Part shown: piece by piece, positions 5,807-26,549 of the stretch
Layout: each line of letters opens with the position of its first letter
Numbering within the stretch: position 1 is the first letter of the stretch
IMG/VR virus record: IMGVR_UViG_3300020001_000003
Location: 1-34,761 of that record
Origin: a virus
Direction: 5' to 3' (one strand)
DNA: 34,761 nt
Translations under genes and position numbers: made by a program
Notes under the pieces: generated by a model
The model's database searches: none
Told to the model about the DNA's origin: nothing
The model's input: the letters and a program-made list of their open reading frames with translations, nothing else

Positions 5807-6103
5807 ATGAGCAACGCAGCAACGCTTGATTTCGAGAAGATCGGTCGCCGGTTGATGCACCCGACGCAGCAGGCGATCCTCTACGCGATGTCGGAAGGCG
5901 GGGGCCAGGTGCTCTCGCCCAACCTGCTCTCCGCGCAGCTCGGCGAGGCGCTCGGAAACGTCAGCTACCACGTGAAGGTGTTGGCCGGGCTCGACGGCAC
6001 CGCGAAGAAGCCGGGCAAGTTCACTGCCCACCCGCTGATCGAGCTCGTCAAAACTGAGCCGCGCCGCGGTGCCGTCGAGCACTTCTACGCCCTGGCGCCG
6101 TGA
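5807..6103 (+). CDS. ArsR-like winged-helix regulator
   Basis: This 98-residue protein has the look of a compact ArsR/HTH_20-type winged helix. It includes MHPTQQAILYAM at the N-terminus, a recognition helix in SPNLLSAQLGEALGNVSYHVKVL, and RGAVEHFYALAP at the end. The 'VSYHVKVL' recognition segment and the 'G..EHFY' wing are hallmarks of that group. It lacks metal-binding cysteines, so it is not a metal sensor. Its own strong promoter and an inverted repeat imply autoregulation. It may control the early or lysogeny switch, but its targets cannot be read from sequence. Confidence 0.8.
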   Translation: MSNAATLDFEKIGRRLMHPTQQAILYAMSEGGGQVLSPNLLSAQLGEALGNVSYHVKVLAGLDGTAKKPGKFTAHPLIELVKTEPRRGAVEHFYALAP

Positions 6104-14429: not shown

Positions 14430-14738
14430 CGCCTCAGCGACGATCCCCCACATACTCGGGGATCTGTCCAAGGGGTCTGGGACCAGTATCTCTGCGTCAC
14501 CCGATCCCGCAAAGAGGATCTCCTCCTCGCCTGTCGCCTGTCGGTTTCCCTGGCCGACGTTCACGAGGCGGCAGGAGTTTTCCAGAGGTCTGCACGGGGC
14601 CGGCTGATCACGGTCGTTAGAAATGCCTCTGCGTCCCTTCGAAAGTGCGGATACGGGACTGCGAACTTCGCCGGGCTCGCCGGTCCAGAGCTCTCGCTGG
14701 GGGGCGCTCGGCAACGGCGCCCGGCGAGGATTTCACAT

Positions 14739-14836
14739 GGCGGTATGGAGCAATTGCGTAGCTCACCTACGAGGGCACACACCTTCCCGGTTGGCCCTGC
14801 CGGAGATGCCGGTTCGACCCCGGCGGCCGCCCACCA
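14739..14836 (+). other. tRNA-like element with T arm, D-arm-like hairpin and encoded CCA
   Basis: A textbook T arm GCCGG-TTCGACC-CCGGC (14808-14824) is followed by GGCCGCC and then ACCA (14833-14836). The 5' strand GGCGGTA (14739-14745) pairs with GGCCGCC (five Watson-Crick pairs, one G-T, one mismatch). GAGC-N9-GCTC (14748-14764) makes a D-arm-like hairpin. The 43 bases before the T arm do not form a normal anticodon arm at the correct spacing. A CCGGT/GCCGG stem (14787-14803) with a 7-base loop is the best candidate, but it leaves ~23 extra bases. It is either a degenerate or expanded tRNA or a tRNA mimic. Confidence 0.5.
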
Positions 14837-14837
14837 A

Positions 14838-14855
14838 CTCCGTAGCTGTCTCGTC
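14838..14855 (+). repeat. 18-bp direct repeat, copy 1
   Basis: CTCCGTAGCTGTCTCGTC begins one base after the ACCA end of the tRNA-like element and lies 13 bases beyond the stop codon of the leftward protease gene. The identical 18-mer recurs at 15284-15301. Confidence 0.85.
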
Positions 14856-14868
14856 CGGCCGGCCGGAT

Positions 14869-15303
14869 TCAGCGGTCGCGCCGGTTGAGTTCGCGCAGTC
14901 CGACCCGTTCGCAGATCGCCGGGATCGCGACGACTTCGGGGTACATGACGTTGCTCGGGTCGGCCGAGTGCTCGAAGCCGAGTAGGTGTCCGACCTCGTG
15001 GATCACCACGGCGCAGGCCCGCTCGAAGTTGCGCGGCGCGGCCAGCGTGCGGCGGACGTAGAGGATGCACGGCGTCGGTTCGGTGGCGATGGTCGCCCAG
15101 CCTTCGGCACCCTCGGGCATCGCCGCGTCGGCGACGATCTCGCGGTCAAGCGACGTGCAGTTGCCAGGTGTCTCGTCCCAGAAGCGGAGCGCGGTGTTGT
15201 AGGCGCGGCCGAGTTCGGGAGTGAACGGCGCCGCCCTCGCTGGCGCGGCCAGCGCCAGGAGGACGACGAGCGAGACGGCGAAGCTCCGTAGCTGTCTCGT
15301 CAC
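14869..15303 (-). CDS. Secreted metzincin/matrixin-type zinc metalloprotease
   Basis: This 144-residue protein starts at GTG overlapping the upstream stop by 4 bases. Residues 2-24 form a signal peptide (basic TRQLR, hydrophobic SFAVSLVVLLALA, then APARA-A cleavage). The mature domain has H102-E103-x-x-H106-x-x-G109-x-x-H112 (VIHEVGHLLGFEH) and M120 in VMYP. This is the extended zinc motif and Met-turn of metzincins such as matrixins. Two or more Cys residues could form disulphides. It is probably exported to degrade a surface or secreted protein. It is small for the family, a minimal catalytic domain, and the gene is bounded by an 18-bp direct repeat. Confidence 0.85.
   Translation of the reverse strand: MTRQLRSFAVSLVVLLALAAPARAAPFTPELGRAYNTALRFWDETPGNCTSLDREIVADAAMPEGAEGWATIATEPTPCILYVRRTLAAPRNFERACAVVIHEVGHLLGFEHSADPSNVMYPEVVAIPAICERVGLRELNRRDR
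15284..15301 (+). repeat. 18-bp direct repeat, copy 2
   Basis: This copy covers the first codons of the leftward protease gene (encoding TRQLRS on the minus strand). With copy 1 at 14838-14855 it brackets a 446-bp unit that contains nearly the whole gene. Confidence 0.85.
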
Positions 15304-15485
15304 GACTTGAACTCGAGATCGAGACGGTCGGCGTGGAGCTTCGACGCCCGGTGTTCGGACGGCCGCTTGCACCACTCGCCCGGCTTCGCCTGACAGGTCG
15401 GGCACGTGAATGAGAGGGGGCAAGGCCCGGCGTCGGCCGCGACCTCACCCCCGCAGAACTCACAGTGTCGCGTTTCCTCGCTCAT
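15300..15485 (-). CDS. Zinc-finger protein of actinophage type
   Basis: This 61-residue protein starts at ATG overlapping the upstream TGA (ATGA). It has two Cys pairs: CEFCGG near the N-terminus and CPTCQAKPGEWCKRPSEHRASKLHADR. The second block 'CP.C.A.PG..C......H....H..R' is a frequent actinophage zinc-finger motif. It may bind nucleic acid. The longer upstream in-frame reading is Arg-rich shadow sequence. Confidence 0.7.
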   Translation of the reverse strand: MSEETRHCEFCGGEVAADAGPCPLSFTCPTCQAKPGEWCKRPSEHRASKLHADRLDLEFKS

Positions 15486-15700
15486 TCGGCCGCCTCTCGG
15501 ATCAGGCGGTTGGCGGTCTGCCTCGGGATCGACGGGCCGGGGATCTGCCGCGCCTCTTCGAGAGTCAGCTCGGGATGGTCGCGGGCCTCGGCCAGCGCGC
15601 CGCCGAGACGCCGCCGCAGTTGCCGACCGCGATCGTCGTGGTCGGCGAGTTCTTGCGCGGTCGCGCCGATCTCTAGGCGGACGGCGTCGGCCGCCCTCAC
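15482..15700 (-). CDS. Helical hypothetical protein
   Basis: The 72-residue product starts at GTG overlapping the previous stop (GTGA) and ends in an ATGA overlap with the zinc-finger gene. It is almost wholly helical, with a likely HTH-like end (TLEEARQIPGPSIPRQTANRLIREA). It may be a small DNA-binding or adaptor protein; no family was recognised. Confidence 0.6.
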   Translation of the reverse strand: MRAADAVRLEIGATAQELADHDDRGRQLRRRLGGALAEARDHPELTLEEARQIPGPSIPRQTANRLIREAAE

Positions 15701-15888
15701 CCCTCCTTCTCCTCCGCGTAGCCCTCAAGCTCGCGGACGACGAGCCGGGTCACGGCGGCCGTCTGCTCGTCGGCGTTCGGTCCCACGGTGGGGAACCCGT
15801 CGATTGCCTCTATGGCCTTCTGCGCGAGCGACTCAGCGAAGCTCGCCCCGACCTTCCCGGCCGTCTCGGTCAGTTCGTTCACGTCCAT
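15697..15888 (-). CDS. Small acidic hypothetical protein
   Basis: The 63-residue product follows a good GAAGGGAGCAACACGA leader. It is helical and acidic (MDVNELTETAGKVGASFAESLAQ.. to EGYAEEKEG). It is the first gene after an intergenic leader that contains a T-arm/acceptor minihelix (15923-15969) and a 10-bp hairpin. The function is unknown. Confidence 0.65.
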   Translation of the reverse strand: MDVNELTETAGKVGASFAESLAQKAIEAIDGFPTVGPNADEQTAAVTRLVVRELEGYAEEKEG

Positions 15889-15922
15889 TCGTGTTGCTCC
15901 CTTCGGTTGGTTTCGGGTACAG

Positions 15923-15969
15923 GGCGGCGCCGGGGAATCGAACCCCGGCCGCTTCTTCCTCTCGCCGCC
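15923..15969 (-). other. tRNA-like minihelix in a leader (acceptor plus T arm)
   Basis: On the minus strand a 7-bp outer stem GGCGGCG/CGCCGCC encloses 14 unpaired bases and a T arm, CCGGGG-TTCGATT-CCCCGG. The loop matches the T-loop consensus TTCRANN. Outer stem and T arm are contiguous, so they would stack as in the top half of a tRNA. No D or anticodon arm fits between them and there is no CCA. Confidence 0.55.
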
Positions 15970-15973
15970 GCAA

Positions 15974-16003
15974 GCGCAGGGTCAGCCCTCGCCGACCCTG
16001 CGC
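15974..16003 (-). terminator. 10-bp hairpin between leftward genes
   Basis: GCGCAGGGTC and GACCCTGCGC pair perfectly over 10 bp around a 10-base loop, 24 bases after the 16027 stop on the minus strand. The 3' flank (TTGCGG) is not a U-tract, so it may be a stabiliser or pause signal rather than a full terminator. Confidence 0.5.
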
Positions 16004-16026
16004 CGTCGTCATATCCGGGCCTCGCA

Positions 16027-16185
16027 TCAGTCCTGCTCTTCGATTTCCGGTTCGCTCTCTTCGAGCCACGCCCCAACATCGGCGTTGCCGTGGAAGACGC
16101 CGATAGCGTCCTCGGCCTGCTTGTCGGCGTCGGCCTGATCGTCGGCGCTGACTTGGATTACGGCCGTGTAGCGATAGATCGGCAT
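16027..16185 (-). CDS. 52-residue hypothetical protein
   Basis: ATG at 16185 follows GGAGGA at good spacing and lies 3 bases after the upstream stop. The product runs MPIYRYTAVIQVSADD, then a helix, then an acidic tail (LEESEPEIEEQD). The pattern suggests a small beta-alpha-beta fold. GC-rich third positions support coding. No function is known. Confidence 0.6.
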   Translation of the reverse strand: MPIYRYTAVIQVSADDQADADKQAEDAIGVFHGNADVGAWLEESEPEIEEQD

Positions 16186-16188
16186 CGG

Positions 16189-16860
16189 TCAGTCCTCCGG
16201 GTAGTGCTCGGGCCGCTCGACGTTGTGACGGTCGAGCACCCCGGCCACCGCTTCCATGAAGTCGGCCGCGTTGCGCCATTCGTCCTCGGTCGGCAGCATC
16301 GCCGCGATCTCTGCCAGCGCCGAGACGGGCGGCTCGGTTTCGTCGGCGTAGGCGACTCGCCCGTCGATCTGCTCGACGATGTTGTCGGTGACGACCAGCC
16401 GCCAAAAGTCGTCCGGTTCCTCGCCGTCCGCCTCGATCTCGCCCTTGCAGACGTGGTCGAAGGTGAAGTCGGCGAACTGCGCCGCGATCTCGTCTGGGAG
16501 CCGCCCGTCTTCCATTTCCTTTTCGACGGTGCAGCCCGGCTTGAGGAACGTGTCGATCAGGTAGACCATCCACTCGGCGGCCTCGTAGAACTTCTCGCCC
16601 TCGTCCCACTCGATCGCGCCGCCACCCTCGCTCGGCACCCACTGGCACCAAAGCCCCGGCTGTCCTGGCGGCGGCTCGTTGTTCTGCTTGATGTCGGTGT
16701 CCGGTCCCTGGCCCATGAAGCCCGCGCCATCGACGAAGTACGGGCCGCGCTCGCGGTCCACGCGCCGGGTCTGGGCGAACTTGCGTAGGTAGGTCTGCTC
16801 GGCCTCGTTGAGTGCCGGCGAGACGCTGACCTCGCCGGAGAAATGCGTCGTGTAGCCCAT
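16189..16860 (-). CDS. Conserved hypothetical protein (YTTHF... type)
   Basis: The 223-residue product begins MGYTTHFSGEVSVSPALNEAE and continues with RRVDRERGPYF, PPPGQPGLWCQWVP and IEWDEGEKFYEAAEWMVYLID. I recognise this as a recurring conserved hypothetical of actinophages and bacteria. The C-terminal ~100 residues are acidic and less familiar. It is cytosolic with many aromatics. The start is set by CCGAAAGGAATCACCG. Its leader carries a minihelix (16911-16952). Confidence 0.75.
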   Translation of the reverse strand: MGYTTHFSGEVSVSPALNEAEQTYLRKFAQTRRVDRERGPYFVDGAGFMGQGPDTDIKQNNEPPPGQPGLWCQWVPSEGGGAIEWDEGEKFYEAAEWMVYLIDTFLKPGCTVEKEMEDGRLPDEIAAQFADFTFDHVCKGEIEADGEEPDDFWRLVVTDNIVEQIDGRVAYADETEPPVSALAEIAAMLPTEDEWRNAADFMEAVAGVLDRHNVERPEHYPED

Positions 16861-16893
16861 CGGTGATTCCTTTCGGTTGGATCGTTCATGTGA

Positions 16894-16908
16894 GCGGGCA
16901 GAGCCCGC
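16894..16908 (-). other. 6-bp hairpin in the 16860 leader
   Basis: GCGGGC and GCCCGC are perfect inverted repeats around a 3-base loop, just 3' (on the minus strand) of the tRNA-like minihelix. Together they form a structured 5' leader for the 223-residue gene. Confidence 0.45.
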
Positions 16909-16910
16909 AG

Positions 16911-16952
16911 AGGCGGCGCGGGGATCGAACCCGCGCAAGCTCCAAGCCGCCT
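16911..16952 (-). other. Second tRNA-like minihelix in a leader
   Basis: On the minus strand AGGCGGC and GCCGCCT make a perfect 7-bp outer stem. Inside are 11 bases and the T arm GCGGG-TTCGATC-CCCGC, directly contiguous with the 3' outer strand. The 5' end overlaps the TAG stop of the upstream gene. The first ~19 bases (GGCGGCTTGGAGCTTGCG) align with the plus-strand element at 14739 (GGCGGTATGGAGCAATTGCG), so the elements look related. Confidence 0.55.
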
Positions 16953-17265
16953 AGACGCTGAGGCCGTGCAGCCCCGAGCGTTCCTCCGCTCGACCAGTCA
17001 CCCCCAGGTGATCGAGATCGTGGTCGTTGGAGCAGTAGAAGCGCAGCTCGCCCTCTAGCGCGCACGGCTGCCCGTCGTAGGTGTCATTGAGGCCGGAGAA
17101 CTCCATATCGGCCACGTCCTCGCCGTCAGCGCTCAGGGCGGTTACGTCGAAGTAGACCTTGCCCGTCGCCTCAATGGTGCCGTCACAGCCCTCTACCGGG
17201 CACGGTGCGCCCTTCGGCTCACCGCCCAGGCCGTCAGCCCCGGCCATCTCTGATTCTGCGTTCAT
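16951..17265 (-). CDS. Hypothetical protein with zinc-ribbon-like Cys
   Basis: ATG at 17265 follows CTACCGAAGGGAGCACC. The 104-residue product has CPVEGCDGTIEATG (Cys pair), a beta-rich middle with YFDVTALSADGEDVADMEF, and later GQPC and RFYCSNDHDLDHLG. This could complete a four-ligand zinc site. It is the first gene of the leftward operon, divergent from the late operon across the 560-base control region. Confidence 0.65.
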   Translation of the reverse strand: MNAESEMAGADGLGGEPKGAPCPVEGCDGTIEATGKVYFDVTALSADGEDVADMEFSGLNDTYDGQPCALEGELRFYCSNDHDLDHLGVTGRAEERSGLHGLSV

Positions 17266-21622: not shown

Positions 21623-23243
21623 GCACCTGGCCGAGGACGGGATCGGCGGTGCGGTGCCGCCCGGCTTCGAGCTCCACGTCGACGACCCGGCGATGCTCGA
21701 AGATCCCGAGGTTCTCGCCCTCCTCGCCAAGGCCAACGAGTCGATCGAGGAAAACCCCCTCTATCGCTATGTGCCCCACCCGAGGCAGTTGATCTTCCAC
21801 GAACACCGGGTCAAAACCAAAGCCTTCGTCGGCGGCAACCGCTCCGGCAAGTCGACCGCCACGGTGATCGACTGTCTGATCCAAGCCCTCGATCTCAGCG
21901 CCGTTCCCGAGGCCTTGCGCAAGTACCGGATCTGGCCGGAGGGCACCAAGTTCAAATGCCGCTTCATCACCCCGGACTACGGCAAGCCTTACCAGTCACT
22001 TTTGGAGACGATCCAAGAATGGGTACCACCGTCGCAGTTGAAGGGTGGCTCCTGGGAGACGGCCTACAAGGACAAAGACCACATAGTGCGCTTTGCCAAC
22101 GGTTCGGTCTTCGACTTTATGACGACCGAACAGCCGCCCTCCAAGCACGGCGGCTCGGCGCGTCACCGCATCGTCTGGGACGAGGAGCCGCCCGACACCG
22201 AAGACGGGGAACGGATCTACACCCAGGCCCGGATGCGGATCGCCGACTACCACGGCGACATGCTCTGGGGCTTCACCCCGATCTCCGAAAAGCTCGGCTG
22301 GGTCTTCGACGAGATCCATGACCAGGCGGTCGAAGACGGTGAGCAGATCTCCGAGCGGGTGTGGCTCAACAAAGAGGAAGGTCTGCTCTTGGTTCAGGCC
22401 TCGATCTACGAGAACCCGCACCTGAGCGAGGAAGGCCGCGAAGACGCGATCGCCGGCATCCGCGGTGATCAGAAAGCGGCCGTCACCGAAGGCGTCTTCA
22501 CCAACGCCAAAGGCCTCGTCTACGAGGAGTTCGATCCCCAGGTCGGCGGCATTCACGTCGTGCCCGAAGAGTGGATCGACCGCGAGCTCGTCGCCGGCCT
22601 CGAACACATCGACGGCATCGACCCCGGCCAGGTCGAGAGTGGGATCTTGTTCACCGGGATCGACAAGCAGGGGCGCGTCGTCGTCTACGACGAACTCACC
22701 CTTTCCGGTCGCTCCGCGGTTCCCGAGCACGCCGCCGAGCTGATCTTCCGCAAGCGCGAAAGCTGGGGCCTGCCGGAGGTCTGCAAGTACACGATCATCG
22801 ACCCGGCCGCCAAATCGCGCGACCTCGGCTCGGGCGAGCGCGTCGGCGAGCAGTGGATCACCGCCGGCATCCCGGTCCTCTACGGCAAGAACGACGTCGA
22901 GGCCGGGGTGACCGAGATCCAGCGCCGCTTCGCCCACCTGATCGACGATGGCGAGGGTGGCAAAAAAGCCTTCCCCCTGATCATCATCTCCTCCCGTTGC
23001 GTCGGCCTGATCAAACAGCTTCGGCGCTACCGCAAAAAACCGAAGGAGGACGGCAGCTTCGGTGTGGTCAAGAAGGACGACCACAAGCCCGACGCGCTCC
23101 GCTACATCTGCATGGAGCGCCGGGTGCCGGTCAAACGCAAACGGCGCCACCCGCGCAAGCAGGCGTGGACGCCCGGCACCGCCCCGCCTTACACCCCCAG
23201 CAATGAACGACGCCGCGGCACCGTAATGGGCCGCTTTACCTGA
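21615..23243 (+). CDS. terL: Terminase large subunit
   Basis: The 542-residue product has the packaging motor's ATPase. The Walker A variant GGNRSGKST lies at ~73-81 and Walker B IVWDE at ~186-190. The C-terminal RNase H-like nuclease shows acidic residues in FTGIDKQGRVVVYDEL, IIDPAAKSR and DDHKPDALRY. It cuts concatemeric DNA and pumps it through the portal. The C-terminus is basic (KRKRRHPRK). It overlaps the upstream gene by 8 bases. Confidence 0.9.
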   Translation: MVEHLAEDGIGGAVPPGFELHVDDPAMLEDPEVLALLAKANESIEENPLYRYVPHPRQLIFHEHRVKTKAFVGGNRSGKSTATVIDCLIQALDLSAVPEALRKYRIWPEGTKFKCRFITPDYGKPYQSLLETIQEWVPPSQLKGGSWETAYKDKDHIVRFANGSVFDFMTTEQPPSKHGGSARHRIVWDEEPPDTEDGERIYTQARMRIADYHGDMLWGFTPISEKLGWVFDEIHDQAVEDGEQISERVWLNKEEGLLLVQASIYENPHLSEEGREDAIAGIRGDQKAAVTEGVFTNAKGLVYEEFDPQVGGIHVVPEEWIDRELVAGLEHIDGIDPGQVESGILFTGIDKQGRVVVYDELTLSGRSAVPEHAAELIFRKRESWGLPEVCKYTIIDPAAKSRDLGSGERVGEQWITAGIPVLYGKNDVEAGVTEIQRRFAHLIDDGEGGKKAFPLIIISSRCVGLIKQLRRYRKKPKEDGSFGVVKKDDHKPDALRYICMERRVPVKRKRRHPRKQAWTPGTAPPYTPSNERRRGTVMGRFT

Positions 23244-23253
23244 GAGGAACTCC

Positions 23254-23595
23254 TTGGACCCGAAACTCGTCACCCTGCCCGCCCACAGCTCCAAGCCGCC
23301 GCACACGTGCGTCGTTACCGGCCGTCGCGATGGTCAGGTGATCGACTTCTGCAAGGACTTCAACGGCATCGACCCGCACATCTACATTCGGCGCGAGCGG
23401 GTCGAGCTGGCGGCCGAGACGCTCTGCGGCATGGTCCGCGAGGCCGAGGTCGCCGAGCTCCGCGCCGAGCTCGCGGAGGCCAACGCGGAGGCCGGCCGAC
23501 TGCGGGCGATCGTCTCCGGCGGCGAGGCGTTGTCCGCGGCGGAAGACAGACTGCGCGAGGCGCTCGGCCCCGCACCAACCAAGGAGGATTCGTGA
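23254..23595 (+). CDS. Small head-region hypothetical protein
   Basis: The TTG start is supported by GAGAGGAACTCC. The 113-residue product opens MDPKLVTLPAHSSKPPHTCVVTGR and has IDFCKDFNGIDPHIYI, a type seen beside actinophage terminase and portal genes. The last 50 residues are a coiled coil rich in Ala/Glu. It may be an assembly accessory. Confidence 0.65.
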   Translation: MDPKLVTLPAHSSKPPHTCVVTGRRDGQVIDFCKDFNGIDPHIYIRRERVELAAETLCGMVREAEVAELRAELAEANAEAGRLRAIVSGGEALSAAEDRLREALGPAPTKEDS

Positions 23596-24053
23596 ACAAC
23601 ACTCTGCTCAGTTCCGAACAGCGCACGGCGACGGCGTCGAGCGTCGACCAGACCTCTCCTGCCGGCCTGCGCGGGGTGCTGCTCACCCTCGACGTCACCA
23701 AAGCCCCGCCCAAAGCGAGGGCCGAAAAAGAAGGCGAAACGGCGCCGGAAAAAGCCGAACTCGCCGCCGAAAAAATCGCCGAGGAAGGCACCCTCGTCGT
23801 CTCCCTCGAGCTGCGCGATCCGGCCTCGGGCAAGTACGTCCCGCTGACCGCTTTCGCCGTCACCAAAAAAGCGAAAGAACTGGAAGCCGGCGCCACCCTC
23901 GCCTTCACGATCTACCCCGGCGCCCTCGAGACGGCGGCGATCGCCAACCACGAAGTGCAGGGCCTCGCGTTGCCCGGCAAGTGGCGCGTCAAGGTGACGC
24001 ACTCGGCCGCCGGCAAATGGACCTATTCGGTCGGGGCCTCGGCGCTTCGATGA
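23592..24053 (+). CDS. Hypothetical structural-type protein
   Basis: GTG overlaps the previous stop; AAGGAGGATTC precedes it. The 153-residue product is a mostly beta domain (GLRGVLLTLDVT, GTLVVSLELRDPASGKYVPL, GATLAFTIYPG, WRVKVTHSAAGKWTYSVG) interrupted by a Glu/Lys/Ala-rich helix. It may be a decoration or minor virion protein, inferred from position and fold. Confidence 0.6.
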   Translation: MNNTLLSSEQRTATASSVDQTSPAGLRGVLLTLDVTKAPPKARAEKEGETAPEKAELAAEKIAEEGTLVVSLELRDPASGKYVPLTAFAVTKKAKELEAGATLAFTIYPGALETAAIANHEVQGLALPGKWRVKVTHSAAGKWTYSVGASALR

Positions 24054-24385
24054 CGATCGCCCTCGCCATCGTCTGCCTGGCGCTCGTGGGCCTCCTCGCA
24101 TACCGCGAGAGGGGCTCTGCGCGCGAGCGAGAGGCCGACCGGCTCTTCCGCGAGGCCCTCGAGCGCCGGACGATCGAGGAGCGCCAGGCGGTCGCGGAGG
24201 AGCGCAGGGAGCTCTACCAGCGCATCCAGGCGCCGGAGATCGCCGTACACGACGCCCAGCTCGAGAAGCGGCGAGAGCGTCCTTACGTGCGCCGTGAGCC
24301 GGTCGGCGCCGATAACGATGCCGCCTTCGCCGCTCGCAGCGCCGCCCGGCAGGCCGAGCGCGACGCGGAGGTAAACGGTGGCTGA
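24050..24385 (+). CDS. Membrane-anchored coiled-coil protein
   Basis: This 111-residue protein starts in an ATGA overlap. Residues 2-17 are one membrane helix (TIALAIVCLALVGLLAY), followed by a long charged coiled coil (REREADRLFREALERRTIEERQ). The form resembles an i-spanin-like or tail-accessory protein. Its place between terminase and portal is unusual for lysis. The next gene overlaps by 8 bases. Confidence 0.6.
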   Translation: MTIALAIVCLALVGLLAYRERGSAREREADRLFREALERRTIEERQAVAEERRELYQRIQAPEIAVHDAQLEKRRERPYVRREPVGADNDAAFAARSAARQAERDAEVNGG

Positions 24386-26549
24386 CGTCGCCGAGAAGCC
24401 CACCCAGAGTTCACCGGCCGGCGCTGAGGGCAAGCCCGAGGTCAAAGGCCGGCAACCGATCCCCACCGACGTCGAGCAGCGTCTCAAGCGCGGCCGCGAC
24501 GGGCTCAACGAAGTCGCCGCCCGCCGGCAGCTCGGGATCAAGTTCGCCAACGGCAACCACTTCGCCGAGCTCAACGACGACGGCACCAAAATCACCGACG
24601 TCTCGACCTCGACCACGGCGCTCGGAGGCGAAAAGCCCGACCACCGGGTGCGCCGATCCAACGACATCATCTCGCCGATGCTCAAGCGGAAAATCTCCTC
24701 CGCGACGCAGCGCGAGCCCGAATGGGAATCGACGTCGGTCACCGGAGATCCCGAGGACTACGCCGCCTCGAGGATCGCGATGCGGCTCGCTCGAGCGGGC
24801 TATGACACCTGGGGCTTCCCGATCGCCGAGGAGAAGGCCTTGTGGTGGGCGATGGTCAGCGAGGAAACTTTCGGCCGCGCCGCGTGGAACGGCAACATCG
24901 GCCCCTTCACCGACGTCTCGACCCACCCCGAAGCCGACGTCGAAGACGCCGAAGGCAACAAGCCCTACGAGGGGCTGCCCGATCCCGAAAATCCCGTCTA
25001 TCGCGGCCGCGGTGAGATCGGCATCACGATCTACTCCGGGCTCGAGGTTCTCTGGGAGCCGGGGGTCGACTTCGAGAACAGCCGTTGGTACGCCGTCGAG
25101 CACGTCCGCTCGATCGAGGAGCTCGAAGACGAACCCGACTTCCTCAAGGTGCCGAACGGCAAGCTGCAACCCGACGCTTCCACCGCGGCGAGCGGCCGCA
25201 CCACGGCGCGGGAGAAGAAGGGCTCCAAACTCTGCGTCACCACCGAATATTTCGAGCGTCCCTGCCCGAAGTACCCGAAGGGCCGCTGGCAGACCTTCGC
25301 CGGGGGTCGCAAGATCTTCGAGGACGAGGACTACCCGATGGTCGACGGCAAGGGCCAGGTCGTCGACCGCCCCTGCCTGCGCCGGCTGATCTACGACATC
25401 GACGGCTCCAACGATCGCGCTCGAGGCCTCGTGCAGAAGGTGATCGACGTGGTCCGCTCCTACGACCAGGCGATCAACAAGCAGAGCGAGTACAGCCAGA
25501 TCGGCCTTGTCGCGCAGATCCTCGCCGCCGAGGGGGTGCTGCTCACCGACCCGACTGACGAGCCCGGCCTCGTGGTCGAGTACGACCGCACCCTGGCGAA
25601 CGGTGAAAAGCCCGAATGGCGCGAAAACATACCCTTCCCCTCCGAGCTCTTCGAGATGGAAGAACGGGCCGAGGCTCGCTTCTCCAAAATCACCTTCGAC
25701 CAGGACATTCCCAATCAGGTCGAATCGGGGACGGCGATCAACTCCGTGGTCGAACTCAGCCGCGTCGCCTGGCAGAAGTTCGTCGACGACTTCGACCGCT
25801 TCCGCTCGGGCCTGATGACCGACTGCCTCGTGATCGCCCAGCGCAAGTACGGTCCCGATCGGCTGATGAAGTTCCGCGGCACGACCGGCTGGGAACCTGT
25901 CGGCGACTTCGAGGGCGCCGACCTCCGCGACCAGACCGACGTCGTCGTCAAGCAGTCGGCGACGCAGATGCAGACGCGGCCGCAGATCGAACAGCGGATC
26001 ATGCAGCTCGTCCAGACCTTCCCCGGCGTCTTCCCGCCCGAGGTCGTGATTCAGGCCCTCTCCTCGGCCACCCCGGAAAAACTGATCCAGGGCTACGAAG
26101 AGGACATCGGCCGAGCGCACCGGGTGATCGAGTCGCTCAAGAACGGCACCTTCATGGATCAGCCTCTTCGGCCGGCGCTGCCCGGAGAGGAAGTGCTCGA
26201 GGAAGTCGGCGGGCGCCCGATGGTCCCCGGCTGGCTGCCGCGGCCCTTCGACTCTCTGCCGATCATCAAAGCGGCGATCGAGTTCTGGATGAAGACCGAC
26301 GATTGGGAATCGTCACCGACGAAAACCAAGGACGCCTCGCTCTTCTACTACCAGAAGATCATCGACCTCGAAACGCAGGCCCAGGTGCGCCAGGAAGAAG
26401 TGCAGAATCAGATCGCCGAAGAACAGGGGATGGTGAACGCCGGCAAGGAACCCGGCCCGAAGGTGTCGCCCTCCCTCCCCGGCGGATCTCCCCAGCCCGG
26501 TGGTGGTAACGGTGAAGAACCGCCGACCGCCAACGAACCCGGCCAGTAA
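24378..26549 (+). CDS. Portal protein
   Basis: This 723-residue protein starts at GTG. It follows terminase and precedes scaffold and capsid genes. It includes a wing/clip-like region (DFENSRWYAVEHVRSIEE), a long helical stem region (VIDVVRSYDQAINKQSEYSQ), and a polar Pro/Gly-rich tail. Length is close to the ~725-residue P22 portal rather than the ~450-500 residues of siphophage portals. It forms the dodecameric DNA channel at one capsid vertex. Homology is judged from pattern and position. Confidence 0.8.
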   Translation: MADVAEKPTQSSPAGAEGKPEVKGRQPIPTDVEQRLKRGRDGLNEVAARRQLGIKFANGNHFAELNDDGTKITDVSTSTTALGGEKPDHRVRRSNDIISPMLKRKISSATQREPEWESTSVTGDPEDYAASRIAMRLARAGYDTWGFPIAEEKALWWAMVSEETFGRAAWNGNIGPFTDVSTHPEADVEDAEGNKPYEGLPDPENPVYRGRGEIGITIYSGLEVLWEPGVDFENSRWYAVEHVRSIEELEDEPDFLKVPNGKLQPDASTAASGRTTAREKKGSKLCVTTEYFERPCPKYPKGRWQTFAGGRKIFEDEDYPMVDGKGQVVDRPCLRRLIYDIDGSNDRARGLVQKVIDVVRSYDQAINKQSEYSQIGLVAQILAAEGVLLTDPTDEPGLVVEYDRTLANGEKPEWRENIPFPSELFEMEERAEARFSKITFDQDIPNQVESGTAINSVVELSRVAWQKFVDDFDRFRSGLMTDCLVIAQRKYGPDRLMKFRGTTGWEPVGDFEGADLRDQTDVVVKQSATQMQTRPQIEQRIMQLVQTFPGVFPPEVVIQALSSATPEKLIQGYEEDIGRAHRVIESLKNGTFMDQPLRPALPGEEVLEEVGGRPMVPGWLPRPFDSLPIIKAAIEFWMKTDDWESSPTKTKDASLFYYQKIIDLETQAQVRQEEVQNQIAEEQGMVNAGKEPGPKVSPSLPGGSPQPGGGNGEEPPTANEPGQ

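Follow-up and report, generated by a model that had tools for sequence, protein, structure and literature searches.

tRNA-like elements in a phage operon

The window analysed here is a virus record of 34,761 bases (IMG/VR record IMGVR_UViG_3300020001_000003), in which a rightward early operon encoding a DnaB-like helicase and a Sak4-like protein faces a leftward operon whose small genes have no known function. An initial annotation of this sequence had marked three sites as related tRNA-like elements and proposed that those in the leftward operon punctuate its mRNA. All three sites are present, one on the plus strand between the two converging operons (E1) and two on the minus strand (E2 and E3), with the following parts (lengths in nucleotides, nt).

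14739..14836 (+): E1, a cloverleaf tRNA-like RNA of 98 nt, with acceptor, D arm GAGC/GCTC, oversized anticodon-like region, T arm GCCGG-TTCGACC-CCGGC and 3' CCACCA
15923..15969 (-): E2, a tRNA-like minihelix; acceptor 15969-15963 with 15929-15923, T stem 15948-15943 with 15935-15930, loop TTCGATT
16911..16952 (-): E3, a tRNA-like minihelix; acceptor 16952-16946 with 16917-16911, UGG linker 16945-16935, T arm 16934-16918

The proposed relatedness holds for E2 and E3, both of which are minihelices composed of an acceptor stem and a T arm (GGCGGCG/CGCCGCC and CGGGG-TTCGATT-CCCCG in E2; AGGCGGC/GCCGCCT and GCGGG-TTCGATC-CCCGC in E3), and does not extend to E1, which is cloverleaf-like and of a different structural type. 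The E3 linker (TTGGAGCTTGC) is no arbitrary spacer and contains CT-UGG-AG, a small covarying mimic of a D arm. A real tRNA was rejected because an anticodon arm is absent in E2, E3 and the other minihelices described below; in E2 and E3 this refers to an arm with a 7-nt loop. Correspondingly, ARAGORN detected no gene in most loci with arrays of such elements, and its single call on E3, 96 nt long, lacks an anticodon and extends into the coding sequence upstream. An Rfam search at gathering thresholds gave no match in the window or in nine loci.

No match to the window was found in a DNA-level search of the phage collection, and its terminase identified 16 relatives at 79-94% protein identity. 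In the seven of these whose sequence extends upstream of the terminase, one or two minihelices on the minus strand and one plus-strand element lie at the same places, with different stem sequences. The number of minihelices expected by chance per shuffled window is 0.05 for a structured scan (T stem of 5 base pairs (bp), TTCRANN loop and contiguous acceptor), 0.45 for a 12-bp scan and 0.07 for the 12-bp scan with UGG added. The folding energy of the single sequences is unremarkable (z-scores of -1.1 and -1.6) and was uninformative; the case for the minihelices is a comparative one.

Covariation of the stems

Conservation and covariation of the stems in relatives was the comparison on which the tRNA-like reading had been staked in advance, and covariation proved very strong. 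Pairing holds in 99.6% of cells across 18 diverse copies, two-sided changes are seen at 12 of the 14 pairs, and the number of cells altered on both sides is 96, compared to 26.5 in shuffles and 21-31 for structures slid along the alignment. Since these 18 rows had been picked by pairing, a second test used the T arm and the upstream UGG alone. Without any acceptor criterion, an acceptor was found at a fixed offset from UGG, with 4.88 of 6 pairs formed on average and 48 of 73 copies perfect, while other offsets gave 1.9-2.6 pairs; the columns of this acceptor contain many different Watson-Crick pairs.

Controls on the search pattern gave a similarly clear separation. Replacing UGG by UCC left 0 of 20 matches structured, compared to 33 of 48, 28 of 90 and 44 of 122 among the matches listed for three UGG patterns, which indicates that UGG belongs to the element; its sequence would fit a D-loop mimic able to form an elbow. 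The reversed-sequence control yielded 0 matches in 4.6 megabases (Mb), against 322 raw matches. A covariance model trained on 18 sequences of the family (R1) scored E3, a member of the training set, at 55.4 bits (E=6e-17), and also recovered E2, which lies outside that set, at 30.5 bits (E=3e-8).

Anatomy of the minihelices

We collected at least 182 distinct copies in which UGG is present and all 12 pairs form, from at least 129 loci, and computed the following fractions on the 182 copies listed. The stack of acceptor and T stem is constantly 12 bp long while the split between the two moves, T stems of 5, 6 and 7 bp (that is, 7+5, 6+6 and 5+7) occurring in 57, 108 and 17 copies, respectively. 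The T loop reads TTCRAYT in nearly all copies. The linker spans 8-16 nt and opens with a mini D arm of 2 bp closed by a UGG loop, with both pairs formed in 165 copies; the pairs seen include AA/TT, CT/AG and CA/TG, which had also served as search patterns, as well as AT/AT, GA/TC and TT/AA, which had not. Past the acceptor, about a third of copies have a purine at position 73; 75% have C at position 74 and none has G there, and 60% have A at position 76.

A second hairpin frequently follows. One of at least 5 bp, starting 0-8 nt past the element, is present for 52 of 83 elements compared to 12% in shuffles, with the ribosome-binding region coming next; hairpins 0-5 nt downstream are common in the family. 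A few neighbouring elements have a third arm (L089 at 3049, L075 near 2475 and G051 at 48966), suggesting that whole tRNA-like RNAs and minihelices are the ends of a continuum. The G+C content of the copies spans 25-70%.

Minihelices mark gene borders

The elements are associated with intergenic positions. Among 78 testable copies, an upstream open reading frame (ORF) stops within -40 to +9 nt for 71, where random positions give 28%. In 69 of the 78, this stop is accompanied by an ATG downstream, where random positions give 12%. In 62 of the 182 copies, the first base of the acceptor is also the last base of a stop-like triplet. The clearest example is the leftward operon of Gordonia phage VanLee (genes 163 to 132), where 16 of the 17 gaps of at least 40 nt hold a copy and none of the 14 shorter gaps does, the sole empty gap of sufficient length being the 362-nt first leader. 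These VanLee copies include 14 different T stems and 7 acceptors. Thus, the structural half of the initial punctuation proposal is strongly supported by covariation, conservation and arrays with one element per intergenic gap.

The surroundings of E2 and E3, all on the minus strand, contain the following parts (lengths of gene products in amino acids, aa; SD, Shine-Dalgarno).

16951..17265 (-): 104-aa gene of unknown function, upstream of E3
16894..16908 (-): hairpin GCGGGC-TCT-GCCCGC, beginning 2 nt past E3
16189..16860 (-): 223-aa gene of unknown function (phrog_38666), downstream of E3, with SD-like GAAAGGA in its leader
16027..16185 (-): 52-aa gene, upstream of E2
15974..16003 (-): 10-bp hairpin, immediately upstream of E2
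15697..15888 (-): 63-aa gene of unknown function, downstream of E2, with SD-like GAAGGGAG

The 5' end of E3 shares two bases with the stop codon of the upstream gene (16953-16951), the last two bases of the stop being the first two of the element. Neither E2 nor E3 is followed by a U run.

Distribution across phages and cellular genomes

A DNA pattern based on linker and T loop identified 50 stretches of viral contigs, far beyond the group of the window. R1 matched 44 of 46 virus records, the richest three of which hold 14, 10 and 8 matches, and the records form at least 12 groups with little relation to each other when grouped by at least two shared proteins. Arrays are recurrent, with about twelve copies by structural scan in L075, six or seven in L089, five each in L055 and L096, and another array in L090. 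Cultured carriers include, besides VanLee, Gordonia phage Cafasso (about eight copies) and Mycobacterium phage Rockstar, which has one copy between gp76 and gp75 (45110-45064, -; E=6e-17, outside the training set) that is also found in Isca and lies in a stretch matched by Phantastic at 99.5%. Three marine isolates resemble L055 weakly at the DNA level (Pelagibacter HTVC033P and HTVC103P, and virus AG-345-E15); no element was found in the stretches of them that were examined.

Copies are scarce in cellular genomes, and the family is mainly viral. In prokaryotes, a pattern scan of 84,980 species genomes returned mostly unstructured matches in coding sequence, for instance one conserved in Amycolatopsis and Prauserella, and three structured loci: L100, L120 (identical in sequence to phage L072) and L121 (a sister of phage L081). 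The L100 copy, at 6006 (+) in the haloarchaeal genome of Halolamina rubra, is weak and uncertain (11 of 12 pairs, at the stop codon of an ORF); if real, it would extend the family to archaea. R1 matched 7 of about 1,190 genomes from three phyla at E<=1e-6, some in unclear context; part of these matches are short elements repeated within actinobacterial chromosomes. Four actinobacterial chromosomes (L134, L135, L136 and L137) carry a few ATGGTCGCA-type copies in the 12-bp register, two of them in one genome, which may be prophage remnants or a cellular relative of the minihelix.

Several further loci have related or superficially similar features. Five copies with the near-identical acceptor CGAGC lie about 150-200 nt apart in L359 (1082-1779, -), a spacing below that of ordinary genes, and perhaps form a tandem non-coding array. 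Three Veracruzvirus sites (L456:815, L458:816 and L451:46715) have in common a GGATCGG/CCGATCC hairpin, after which come a run of T and a TTGACA promoter box, with a T-arm-like inner hairpin in two of the three; this looks like a terminator ahead of a promoter. In phage ctEqG8 (L126, MW202795), whose terminase is 27% identical to that of the window, four complete tRNA genes are interleaved with small genes at 22962-26124, and the 3' ends of tRNA-Arg and tRNA-Lys lie 2-3 nt ahead of the next ATG, an apparent natural analogue of the minihelix arrangement that uses complete tRNAs. Finally, the VanLee record (L454) encodes a Ro-like (TROVE) RNA-binding protein adjoining a tRNA-Arg gene at 65454-67367. 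A bacterial, Ro-associated Y RNA was rejected as the identity of the minihelices, with TROVE detected in 1 of 36 searched records (VanLee only) and no Rfam match in the window or the nine loci.

A separate tRNA-like RNA between the operons

E1 is kept in 10 relatives, and across these eleven phages (window included) the acceptor GGCGG/CCGCC, the D arm and the T arm are conserved, the latter with compensating changes in its stem. A large variable region takes the place of a normal anticodon arm. In most relatives, E1 starts with GGCGGTCGGGACGG or similar, and the likeness between the first 20 bases of E1 and E3 is not kept in them. Located where the rightward operon ends, E1 may constitute a tRNA-like RNA in its own right. 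The approximately 150 nt upstream (14600-14740, +) are also kept in relatives, as blocks GGGGGACCGGC-TTGCTGGGGCCGG and CGGCGCCCGGTGAGGA, and the two parts perhaps form one longer non-coding RNA finishing in E1. The sequence CTCCGTAGCTGTCTCGTC occurs twice in the window, immediately after E1 (14836-14853) and at the start of a metallopeptidase gene (15282-15300), and a related stretch is found inside E1 of some relatives. This gene (14869-15303, -) encodes a small protein with the motif HEVGHLLGFEH and no PHROG match, which is probably a secreted zinc metallopeptidase.

A model of mRNA punctuation

Given the structure, covariation, position and arrays described above, it is likely that the minihelices act as tRNA-like punctuation marks at which host RNase P, perhaps together with RNase Z, cuts polycistronic phage mRNA. 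Each element would fold as the acceptor/T half of a tRNA, with 12 coaxial bp from the T loop to the 5' end, and the mini D arm would present UGG such that its two G's contact the T loop and create the elbow of a tRNA. This elbow would be read by host RNase P, which would cut 12 bp away, that is, at the 5' end of the element and at or just past the upstream stop codon. The downstream gene would then reside on an mRNA starting with the minihelix and its hairpin; a cut on the 3' side, by RNase Z or another nuclease, would make the hairpin the new 5' end. At E2, cleavage at the 5' end would leave the 15974..16003 hairpin as the 3' terminus of the upstream mRNA. Such processing could affect mRNA stability and the expression of single genes.

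Across very different phages, the T loop, UGG, the 12-bp distance, C74 and A76 are kept while the stem sequence is free. Because these kept features match what RNase P reads, cleavage by this enzyme at the 5' end of the element is the simplest mechanism, and we infer it from the 12-bp ruler, the T loop/UGG elbow and the retained C74 and A76. Several observations weigh against this model. The E2 linker has AGAGG in place of UGG, and two relatives of the window phage (G007 and G014) have no R1 match. A full NCCA end is present in only 12 of the 182 copies, mainly in L075, and pairing between N-1 and N73, possible in about half of all copies, could move the cut by one base. For copies found with the AATGGTT pattern, intergenic placement is not clearly better than for unstructured matches of that pattern, so some family members need not be punctuation.

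Alternative explanations differ in how much of the element they account for. The intergenic position and the downstream hairpin would be equally expected if minihelix and hairpin formed an uncut structure, the tRNA fold being merely compact and stable, that serves as an mRNA stabilizer, ribosome insulator or exonuclease block. We consider this rather unlikely, since a plain stabilizer would need neither a tRNA T-loop sequence, nor UGG, nor a fixed 12-bp length with a movable split, nor C74/A76. The elements could also be excised by RNase P and RNase Z as small tRNA-like RNAs acting in trans, for example as decoys for tRNA-binding enzymes or tRNA-targeting defences, with cutting of the operon only secondary. 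An anatomy near that of mascRNA, the 12 copies with NCCA and the presence of several copies per genome are consistent with this scenario; copies in nearly all gaps of one operon and hardly elsewhere fit a role in cis, and the freely varying acceptors leave no common trans identity beyond the tRNA elbow, making a trans-acting product distinctly unlikely.

The initial annotation had also considered attachment sites and degenerate tRNAs. The window encodes a tyrosine integrase (PF00589, 4253-5140, +), so that the phage is probably temperate, and the attP of tyrosine-integrase phages often includes the 3' half of a tRNA. Nevertheless, the elements lie about 10 kilobases from the integrase gene, many differing stem sequences coexist within one genome in arrays of up to 16 copies, acceptor and T stems covary, and 16 of 35 searched records have no PF00589 integrase match at E<=0.001, and an origin as attP sites or remnants of host tRNAs left by integration is therefore highly improbable. 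The GC-rich window and the weak folding z-scores might further suggest that T-arm-like hairpins arose by chance in GC-rich sequence, or that the elements are intrinsic terminators. This reading has next to nothing left in its favour when set against copies at 25% to 70% G+C, the shuffled (0.05-0.45 per window) and reversed (0 in 4.6 Mb) expectations and the lack of a U run past E2 or E3, and it is refuted by the covariation, the fixed-offset acceptor and the UCC control.

Returning to punctuation by RNase P, it seems on balance probable that the minihelices constitute an undescribed, widespread RNA class, in which non-decoding tRNA minihelices serve many phage lineages, with hosts among the Actinobacteria and probably in other phyla too, as host-RNase-P cut marks to produce single-gene mRNAs with protected ends. 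If so, this would be a general post-transcriptional device of phages, unseen by annotation because it has no Rfam family and ARAGORN is mostly blind to it, through which every gene of a phage operon would obtain its own mRNA by way of the host's most universal RNA enzyme. VanLee, Cafasso and Rockstar, as cultured carriers, make the punctuation reading testable. The minihelices would also offer natural minimal tRNA-like substrates for probing elbow reading and the 12-bp ruler of RNase P, and possibly a compact part for splitting synthetic operons.

Comparison with known systems

No published description of this minihelix family was found in the open literature, subscription papers and most preprints being outside the coverage of that search. 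Both tRNA-like RNase P substrates and tRNA punctuation are already known; what appears new, as far as we found, is a repeated covarying minihelix as operon punctuation in many phages.

In structure, the elements come close to mascRNA and menRNA (RF01684; human MALAT1 and MENbeta), which combine an acceptor stem, a T arm and a reduced D arm with two G's inside a longer RNA; those RNAs are processed by RNase P and RNase Z (PMC11693755). In mascRNA, the elbow that both enzymes recognise is built from these two G's and the T loop, and no amino acid is attached to the RNA (PMC11693755). The phage elements differ in having no anticodon-like arm and in being arrayed between coding regions, and their score of 21.6 bits falls short of the 42.5-bit cutoff; E2 has a weak mascRNA-like score. 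The same set of acceptor, T stem and T loop is found in the bacterial RNase P model substrates of McClain and Altman, and model hairpins of acceptor and T stem-loop are cut by RNase P at the canonical site (PMC11143913). These model substrates are synthetic, whereas the phage minihelices are natural, possess a mini D arm and retain the CCA end only in part.

Natural phage substrates trimmed by host RNase P include phage M3 RNA and the C4 antisense RNA of P1 and P7 (PMC11143913), and RNase P also cuts intergenic regions of bacterial operon mRNA, as in the his operon (Alifano 1994; Li & Altman 2003; both as summarised in PMC11143913). M3 RNA and C4 RNA are single small RNAs, in contrast to the repeated operon punctuation formed by the minihelices. 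To our knowledge, the structure of M3 and C4 RNA is not the same as that of the minihelix, and RNase P sites of the his-operon type are not a recurrent covarying tRNA-like family. In their arrangement, the minihelices resemble mitochondrial tRNA punctuation, where tRNA-shaped marks stand at gene borders and excision would likewise free separate mRNAs. The mitochondrial marks are functional tRNAs, while those of phages are non-decoding minihelices, such that the family, if cut as proposed, would represent a viral counterpart of mitochondrial tRNA punctuation made of half-tRNAs.

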